Below, one piece after another: positions 25,434 through 31,923 of a stretch of DNA of 33,488 nucleotides. Made by a program: the position numbers and the translations under genes. Every line of letters starts with the position of its first letter. Within the stretch, counting starts at the first letter, position 1. The notes under the pieces were generated by a model, which worked only from the letters and a program-made list of their open reading frames with translations, was not told the origin of the DNA and searched no databases. Origin of the DNA: Omnitrophica bacterium RIFCSPHIGHO2_02_FULL_46_20 (GTDB taxonomy: Bacteria; Omnitrophota; Gorgyraeia; 2-01-FULL-45-10); contig MHFG01000015.1 of the NCBI GenBank assembly GCA_001804065.1, positions 1 to 33,488 of the forward strand. Reading direction: 5' to 3'.

Positions 25434-25454
25434 AAATTCGCCTCCGGCGAATTT
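25434..25454. terminator. Perfect hairpin AAATTCGCC-TCC-GGCGAATTT at the 3' edge of tRNA-Lys
   Basis: 9-bp perfect stem immediately after the encoded CCA on the minus strand. Confidence 0.7.
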
Positions 25455-25529
25455 GGTGCCCGCACCAAGAATTGAACTTGGAACCTTGACATTAAGAGTG
25501 TCCTGCTCTGCCAATTGAGCTATGCGGGC
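25454..25529 (-). tRNA. tRNA-Lys(CTT)
   Basis: GCCCGCA acceptor, loop CTCTTAA, GTTCAATTC T-loop, encoded CCA. Confidence 0.93.
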
Positions 25530-25592
25530 AGATTGCTTATCTATTTAGCGCAAAAAAATTGTTGAGCCGCTCTATTTCGTATAGGGCGAAAT

Positions 25593-25635
25593 CCCCCGAA
25601 GCATCTCCTCTATCCCGCGTTGATTGCGAAGGGGG
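25593..25635. repeat. 43-nt hairpin element, copy 1
   Basis: CCCCCGAAGCATCTCCTCTATCCCGCGTTGATTGCGAAGGGGG. Confidence 0.85.
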
Positions 25636-25710
25636 AAGCTATGCGGGCCTAATATCTGTCAAATTAGCACAATAAATTGTTGAGCCGCTCTATTTCGTAT
25701 AGGGCGAAAT

Positions 25711-25753
25711 CCCCCGAAGCATCTCCTCTATCGCACGTTGATTGCGAAGGGGG
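25711..25753. repeat. 43-nt hairpin element, copy 2
   Basis: CCCCCGAAGCATCTCCTCTATCGCACGTTGATTGCGAAGGGGG. Confidence 0.85.
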
Positions 25754-25802
25754 AAGCTATGCGGGCGCTGTCTATAAAGTCATTAGCCCTGTCTGCGAAA
25801 TC

Positions 25803-25845
25803 TCGCCGGAGCATTCTGCCTATCGCATGTTGAATGCGAAGGCGG
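25803..25845. repeat. 43-nt hairpin element, copy 3 (diverged)
   Basis: TCGCCGGAGCATTCTGCCTATCGCATGTTGAATGCGAAGGCGG, preceded by GAAATC like the other copies. Confidence 0.75.
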
Positions 25846-25931
25846 ATGAGCTACTTTAAAGGCGTAAATTATATCAAAATACTGCTATAAAATCAATATT
25901 TATAAGAATGCCGCTCTCGGGAATGCCCGCG

Positions 25932-26031
25932 CCATGAACACGAGCGTTTGCCCTGTACCACTCAAAATTACTTCGTAATTTTTCGGATACAGGGCATGAA
26001 CCACATGCAGGCAAACGCAAGTAGTTCATGG
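25932..26031. repeat. ~100-nt nested inverted repeat next to tRNA-Leu
   Basis: CCATGAAC/GTTCATGG, GCGTTTGCC/GGCAAACGC, CCCTGTA/TACAGGG, AAAATTAC-TTC-GTAATTTT nested in order. Confidence 0.85.
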
Positions 26032-30691: not shown

Positions 30692-31777
30692 CTATCTTTT
30701 AAAGAATTTAACGATTCCGTCGAATATTTTAAACTTCATTATATCGTTATAGAATATAAAAACCGTAAGTAATATCAGAAAACCTATCCCTATATTGGCG
30801 ATGATTTCTTGGGCCTTCATTGAAAGCGGTTTTCCTCTTATCTTCTCGACAATGAGGAATAGTATGTGGCCGCCGTCAAGGACCGGCAGCGGCAGCAGGT
30901 TGAATATTGCGAGCGATGCGCTCAACATAGCCGTTAGATTTATTAGATATATAAGACCCATTTGCGCCGCTTTACCCGTTATTATAAATATACCGATGGG
31001 CCCGGTCATCGATTCCTTTACGGACATCCTGCCCGTAATAATATACCATATCGCCTTATATGTTAAATTGGTTAGAACTATGAGTTTCTTTAATCCCATG
31101 CCGAAAGATTGAAAAAAACCGTATCGAATATTCTCTATCTTCTGAGAAGGCGCTATGCCCAACAACGCTATCTTTGTGCTTTTACCGAATATATCTTTTA
31201 CCTCTCTTATAACAGGCCGTAATTCAAGATCAAAAGTCTCGCCCTTTCTTTCAAGAGAAAGTTTTATCGGGCCTTCAAGATGATCATGTATTATTGCCGT
31301 CATGTCCTCCCAGTACTTAACATCCTTATTATCGACTTTGAGGATTTTATCTCCGAGGATTATGCCGGATTTCTTGGCGGGGTAATCTTCAAGAAGAGAC
31401 CCGACTTCTGTGGTAAGCGTTGGGCTTCCGAACATAAAAATAACGGAAAATATCAAAAACGCCAGCACATAGTTCAATAGCGGCCCCGCAAATATTATCT
31501 TGAAACGATCCGCTATCTTTCTTGAGAGAAACTCAAAACTCTTGCCGGTTAGGTCCTTGCCAGGCTCATCACCTGCCATTTTTACATAACCGCCCAAAGG
31601 TATTGCTGAGACAAGATATTCCGTCTCGCCTCTTATAATAGAAAATATCTTCGGGCCGAATCCGAAAGAGAATTTTTCGACGCGCACGCCTATCCTCTTA
31701 GCTACGATAAAATGGCCAAACTCATGCACGATCACGAGGACGCTCAAAACTATCAGAAAATAGACTATTGATAACAA
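30692..31777 (-). CDS. rseP: RIP metalloprotease RseP/site-2 protease family
   Basis: VIVHEFGHFIVAKRIGVRVEKFSFGFGPKIF, PDZ region, NLLPLPVLDGGHILF; TTG start with AAGGAGG 9 nt upstream. Confidence 0.95.
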   Translation of the reverse strand: MLSIVYFLIVLSVLVIVHEFGHFIVAKRIGVRVEKFSFGFGPKIFSIIRGETEYLVSAIPLGGYVKMAGDEPGKDLTGKSFEFLSRKIADRFKIIFAGPLLNYVLAFLIFSVIFMFGSPTLTTEVGSLLEDYPAKKSGIILGDKILKVDNKDVKYWEDMTAIIHDHLEGPIKLSLERKGETFDLELRPVIREVKDIFGKSTKIALLGIAPSQKIENIRYGFFQSFGMGLKKLIVLTNLTYKAIWYIITGRMSVKESMTGPIGIFIITGKAAQMGLIYLINLTAMLSASLAIFNLLPLPVLDGGHILFLIVEKIRGKPLSMKAQEIIANIGIGFLILLTVFIFYNDIMKFKIFDGIVKFFKR

Positions 31778-31798
31778 TTATTCATTCCTCCTTGAAAT

Positions 31799-31841
31799 CC
31801 TCCGAAGCATTGAGTCTATTGCGCCTTGAATGCGAAGGAGG
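31799..31841. repeat. 43-nt hairpin element, copy 4
   Basis: CCTCCGAAGCATTGAGTCTATTGCGCCTTGAATGCGAAGGAGG. Confidence 0.85.
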
Positions 31842-31880
31842 ATAGACTATTGATAACAATTATTCATTCCTCCTTGAAAT

Positions 31881-31923
31881 CCTCCGAAGCATTGAGTCTA
31901 TTGCGCCTTGAATGCGAAGGAGG
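31881..31923. repeat. 43-nt hairpin element, copy 5
   Basis: Identical to copy 4, offset 82 bp. Confidence 0.85.

Follow-up and report, generated by a model that had tools for sequence, protein, structure and literature searches.

Upstream of an intact tRNA-Lys(CTT) gene in an Omnitrophota genome, we found a tandem array of displaced tRNA-Lys 5' ends, in which a hairpin-bearing insert, designated X, interrupts the tRNA sequence exactly between nucleotides 12 and 13 (12|13). The array clearly exemplifies an arrangement that recurs at many tRNA genes in related Omnitrophota genomes of several genera, with breaks in the arms and loops of the cloverleaf. The explanation that we prefer, with a probability of roughly 0.55, is that displaced 5' ends with X inserts lie beside a regenerated tRNA, following the logic of 5'-type tRNA-gene islands, and that the array was changed later by slippage or recombination.

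Array of displaced 5' ends upstream of tRNA-Lys

The window, i.e., the whole stretch of 33,488 nucleotides that was analysed, is contig 15 of a 1.31-Mb Omnitrophota genome in 92 contigs. Its minus strand carries tRNA-Arg, tRNA-Leu, tRNA-Lys and tRNA-Gly, all upstream of a PTS IIA gene, and about 20 relatives keep this tRNA cluster, whole or in part. Two displaced copies of nucleotides 1-12 of the tRNA-Lys (GCCCGCATAGCT) were found, each followed directly by T and a 43-nt hairpin, designated E (Table 1). A sequence-only reading had described two units of tRNA-Lys nucleotides 1-12, hairpin and leader, followed by the intact tRNA-Lys, with each partial unit opening with the tRNA nucleotides and switching to the hairpin. 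This order was confirmed, and the junction was seen in both units, but the count of two was incomplete, as a third, diverged E preceded by GTAGCTCAT lies farther upstream.

Table 1. Positions of the features discussed, in window coordinates
Feature	Position	Strand	Basis
Intact tRNA-Lys(CTT)	25454..25529	-	ARAGORN and Rfam RF00005, 66 bits
Remnant of tRNA nt 13-17 (CAATT) and unit A leader	25530..25561	-	sequence
-10-like TGCGCTAAA in unit A leader	25544-25552	-	putative promoter
Insert X, copy A, 75 nt, with hairpin E at 25593-25635	25562..25636	-	
Fragment A, tRNA-Lys nt 1-12	25637..25648	-	
Remnant of tRNA nt 13-17 and unit B leader	25649..25679	-	sequence
-10-like TGTGCTAAT in unit B leader	25663-25671	-	putative promoter
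Insert X, copy B, 75 nt, with hairpin E at 25711-25753	25680..25754	-	
Fragment B, tRNA-Lys nt 1-12	25755..25766	-	
Unit C, third, diverged hairpin E	25803..25845	-	
GCCTTTAAAGTAGCTCAT, degenerate tRNA-5'-like stretch before unit C (weak)	25846..25863	-	sequence only
GATATAAT, candidate -10-like motif upstream of outermost unit	25868..25875	-	motif spacing in relatives
Exact 82-nt tandem repeat (E, ribosome-binding site and first 18 nt of rseP-like ORF)	31760..31923	-	

Units A and B, at a spacing of 118 nt, have 96 nt in common at 97% identity, and the 43-nt element gave zero matches in shuffled sequence. The leaders are far more divergent than this remainder of the unit, with 17 of 28 positions identical and only 6 of the 15 nearest the tRNA. 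The earlier statement that the leader before the real tRNA matches that before the inner fragment is thus only partly true. Similarly, the proposed tandem duplication is borne out by a repeated unit of tRNA 5' end, hairpin and leader, but a simple recent duplication as the origin of the array was rejected because the leaders are too different. The -10-like GATATAAT is probably the native -10 of tRNA-Lys, and since it lies upstream of the outermost unit, transcripts with decoy tRNA 5' halves, as had been suggested, are possible.

Nearly all genomes compared are metagenome assemblies, with a few stretches masked. An assembly artefact is nevertheless unlikely, because the units in the window differ from each other, because a tandem array of the same layout occurs at tRNA-Lys in another genus (genome G004, locus L370), and because the complete genome of Candidatus Velamenicoccus archaeovorus has a 5' fragment with a hairpin (L078).

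Insertion of X between nucleotides 12 and 13

X is 73-85 nt long and was found exactly at 12|13 in eight cases from several genera: Lys (twice in the window, G004 and L051), Gly (G017 and G023), Arg (G004) and Met (L158). Nucleotides 1-12 of the tRNA stand on its left, and on its right the tRNA continues from nucleotide 13 for a few to 22 nt (CAATT in the window, CAATGGTAGAATA in G017, CAGC, and nucleotides 13-34 in G023). Since the tRNA resumes at nucleotide 13 behind X, X was inserted into tRNA sequence; the idea that the element replaced most of a tRNA copy was wrong. X starts with T-CCNCC, continues with the hairpin and GGATTTCGCC, and ends with GGCTCAA. Its ends are invariant, its apical stem sequence is swapped freely with the pairing kept, and its loops vary. 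Orthology of the insertions between genera was judged by position and conserved ends, without a tree.

The right-end motif of X, GTCNGGNTTAGGCT, had eight matches in the family, all eight adjoining tRNA 5' sequence. Within the fetched stretches, an intact tRNA follows downstream in seven of them, and the eighth (L370) stops within a second unit. Two further matches came from other families, and a tRNA was not found near them. The remnant behind X is TGYGCTWAW-like in Lys, Arg and Met and TGGTAGAATA in Gly; both resemble an extended -10 and may drive the regenerated tRNA. At L257 (G023:C216), a single displaced tRNA-Gly copy contains two hairpin inserts, one at 12|13 and the other in the anticodon loop at 34|35, and the tRNA resumes after each.

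Properties and distribution of hairpin E

The consensus of E from 12 copies in its own genome is CCNCC-TTC-G(CATTC)...(GAATG)C-TTC-GGNGG with covarying pairs. Among genomic copies, four pairs were changed on both sides, and 95.8% of the cells were paired versus 84.4% in shuffles. At E<0.01, a covariance model recovered 30 copies from the own 1.3-Mb genome. It also detected E in the majority of the family's genomes, with a maximum of 82 copies in G023. Of the 30 own-genome copies, 12 are located within 500 nt of a predicted tRNA, where fewer than one was expected, and inverted pairs of E follow the CCA end of several tRNAs. E is also inserted away from tRNAs. The exact 82-nt repeat in Table 1, which shows TCTAT microhomology, duplicates the start region of the rseP-like gene.

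E was not found within the 92 kb around 30 Y1_Tnp (Y1/RAYT-type) genes of the own genome and relatives, and mobilisation of E by RAYT/IS200 was rejected for this reason. No GTAG or CGTC tag common to the left flanks of the 30 own-genome copies was seen by eye; many of these flanks end in TAT. At the gathering threshold, Rfam matched only tRNAs in the window, and neither the hairpin nor the 3' elements of relatives gave a match above threshold. E as the universal cause of the breaks was also rejected, as hairpins of other kinds stand behind the break in L078, L334 and L337; because these hairpins differ in family, one element cannot explain all cases.

In L008 (G000:C47, about 1367-1627), next to masked bases, a copy of E is placed in a stretch resembling a tRNA that contains a group I intron (Intron_gpI in Rfam at 33 bits, under the gathering score of 50). 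The own genome probably holds a further case, since L139 (G000:C63:4699) has a tRNA-Met-like 5' fragment, GGCGGGGTAGCTCA, with an E-like hairpin behind it and masked bases nearby. In addition, immediately behind the CCA end of tRNA-Leu (window 25929-26028, minus strand) stands another dispersed hairpin, CATGAACTACTTGCGTTTGCC...GGGCAAACGCTCGTGTTCATG, and similar sequences occur at other tRNA 3' ends in the own and related genomes.

Survey of tRNA end fragments

The survey covered 367 Omnitrophota tRNA loci from the own genome, relatives of the cluster, four E-rich genomes and other fetched loci, and was not a random sample. Upstream copies of the tRNA's own 5' end were detected at 33 loci (37 copies), 33 of the copies beginning exactly at nucleotide 1. 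They end at nucleotides 11-25 in 30 of 37, at 34-36 in three and at 56 in two. Downstream copies of the own 3' end were detected at 50 of the 367 loci; 51 of these 53 copies stop at the last base, and 38 begin at nucleotides 54-60, in the T-loop. Most breaks thus fall in one of three places, the D-arm, the anticodon loop or the T-loop. A hairpin starts within 3 nt of the 5' break in 24 of 36, versus 13% of random positions. As for polarity, fragments of the 5' end stand upstream of the tRNA and those of the 3' end downstream of it, and the control with the reverse configuration was almost empty. Had the units in relatives never contained tRNA sequence, this would have spoken against the sequence-only reading; relatives show the same kind of tRNA fragments at tRNA-Lys and at other tRNAs.

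The binomial values for break clustering (about 1e-14 and 1e-25) were calculated as if breaks were uniform above the detection length, and the 5' value was computed with 31/38, where the count is 30/37, with the same conclusion. Loci related by descent were counted separately, so these counts overstate the number of independent events. Because short fragments are kept and found more easily, fragment length may account for part of the D-arm excess, but it leaves the peak in the T-loop and the hairpins next to the breaks unexplained. An 11-nt tRNA-Pro 5' fragment (L176) may be due to chance or a terminator, and no weight was placed on it.

In most loci, the duplicated piece begins at tRNA nucleotide 1 and excludes the leader, which is included in L169, L258 and the outer L010 copy. 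The fragments are near-perfect while the leaders diverge. Other tandem arrays were found at tRNA-Lys in G004, where the leaders are identical, at tRNA-Thr in G012 (L337, two 61-nt units) and at tRNA-Arg in L311 (two units). Many relatives (L011, L015, L016, L021) have no fragment at the same tRNA.

Two structured arrangements were observed beside these fragments. Downstream of tRNAs in L012 (160-320), L018 (1128-1410 and 2587-2753), L019 (959-1100 and 2560-2700) and L030 (2575-2740) lies a conserved element of about 100 nt, GAAGCC...CGCCGAC..AAGGAAAAG...GACAG...GTAGC. At each locus it opens with the reverse complement of the T-arm of that tRNA and closes with a copy of the last ~21 nt of the same tRNA, so the arms fit their own target tRNA. 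An Rfam search with this element gave no match. The tRNA-Arg loci L020 (1831-1918), L309 and L311 mirror these 3' elements: a 23-nt 5' fragment and a hairpin are followed by the reverse complement of the fragment's D-arm (ATCCAATTGAG), with which the real tRNA could form an alternative pairing.

Origin of the array

In L013, L051 and L087, a TATAAT-type -10 is located upstream of the outermost fragment at a similar spacing to that before the uninterrupted tRNA in L016 and L021. Because of this spacing, the outermost fragment is most likely the native gene start and the intact tRNA a regenerated copy. In the window, the outermost, degenerate unit would accordingly represent the native promoter and gene start. 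X would enter the D-arm of 5' tRNA segments at 12|13, and we infer that insertion and duplication were one event, the copied end regenerating a complete tRNA-Lys downstream. The nucleotides 1-12 would then serve as direct repeats, through which slippage or recombination could lengthen or shorten the array and homogenise the units. The G004 array with its identical leaders may show the next step at the same tRNA. Several observations count against this explanation, among them the mixed families of the hairpins behind the breaks. The leaders in the window have diverged beyond what simple slippage would leave, and conversion or repeated insertion would be needed to place diverged leaders beside a homogenised remainder; moreover, shared sequence starting at nucleotide 1 is predicted by no standard target-site duplication. 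No mobilising enzyme was linked to the inserts either: in the own genome (about 92% complete), XerC and XerD were the only tyrosine recombinases detected, and the Y1_Tnp genes examined had no E around them.

The strongest alternative, although we regard it as unlikely, is a history in two steps, in which slippage duplicated the leader with the tRNA 5' part and REP-like hairpins later entered the dispensable copy, intact tRNAs being intolerant of them. The E copies away from tRNAs, the 82-nt repeat with its microhomology, and a fragment with more than one hairpin, as in L257, agree with such a history. However, random insertion predicts 5' fragments downstream and 3' fragments upstream as well, of which nearly none were seen, and the breaks cluster in cloverleaf arms and loops. 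Somewhat less credence again is given to a class of miniature inserts that recognise the cloverleaf fold of tRNA genes, or a cruciform, with insertion and rebuilding of the tRNA as a single event that might involve XerC/XerD or an RNA or single-stranded intermediate; breaks in the D-, anticodon- and T-loops and one duplicate edge at the mature tRNA end would fit such inserts.

It is improbable that the 5' fragment and hairpin are kept as a functional leader of the pre-tRNA, e.g., as an RNase P decoy or a maturation switch by alternative pairing. The conserved frame and stems of X with variable loops, the near-perfect fragments against diverged leaders, the tRNA-Arg loci with the D-arm complement and the -10-like motif upstream would fit this role, but the many relatives with no fragment at the same tRNA indicate that it is not required, and the search thresholds favour well-preserved fragments. 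That the arrays are scars of former large tDNA islands, of which genome reduction left only the displaced fragment and attachment arms, is very doubtful: the genome is small, and the fragment polarity is island-like with partly the same sub-sites, but X has a defined size and ends conserved across different tRNAs, and known islands avoid the D-arm and carry a 5' fragment in only 159 of 3,919 (PMC4383910).

If insertion and tRNA regeneration are coupled, as in the preferred explanation, the inserts would be far smaller than catalogued tRNA-gene islands and would suggest that Omnitrophota have a recombination activity not yet recognised. Across the phylum, the inserts also lengthen and restructure tRNA upstream regions, which bears on tRNA expression.

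Comparison with known systems

Islander accepts islands of 2-200 kb, and island finders discard candidates below 2 kb; the inserts described here can mislead such finders as well as tRNA annotation. Like 5'-fragment-type tDNA islands, which use tyrosine integrases, they split a tRNA gene and leave a fragment on the matching side, as Islander requires (PMC4383910), with an intact regenerated tRNA, and arrays are possible. They differ in their size of about 60-250 nt, the D-arm break and the hairpin at the break. No integrase was found in the 118-nt units, and the genome shows only XerC/XerD. Crossovers of tDNA islands are known from the anticodon loop, the T-loop or the T/acceptor junction and not from the D-arm (PMC4383910), whereas the units of the window break at nucleotide 12, in the D-arm; in a few relatives, the break is in the anticodon loop or T-loop. 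The pTN3-type archaeal integrases, whose attB is in the tRNA 5' half, likewise displace this half, and a promoter of the element then drives the regenerated tRNA (PMC8371274). Unlike the Omnitrophota inserts, pTN3-type elements are large, autonomous and integrase-bearing.

E resembles REP/REPIN sequences in being an imperfect palindrome of about 40 nt with a paired stem, present as singlets and inverted pairs and dispersed between genes. REP/REPIN are palindromes tagged by GTAG or CGTC, and the GTAG class is mobilised by RAYT; E differs in its strong link to tRNA ends, and neither a conserved tetranucleotide tag (by eye) nor an E-flanked RAYT gene was found.

The same script applied to the 49 tRNAs of E. 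coli K-12 detected zero 5' fragments, and 3' fragments at tyrTV, lysT and argQZYV, where the last 18-19 nt are repeated downstream; going by the E. coli sequence and its annotation, we take those at tyrT to be the tyrT/rttR tRNA 3'-end repeats. The Omnitrophota 3' fragments at other tRNAs of relatives are of this type, but the E. coli repeats concern the 3' end only, and the tRNA-Lys of the window has only 5' fragments. Our literature search found no published account of hairpin-bearing tRNA 5' fragments in Omnitrophota. Because of these E. coli loci, the 3'-end form is already known, and the form with 5' fragments, a D-arm break and a hairpin is apparently a variation on this theme that is new.
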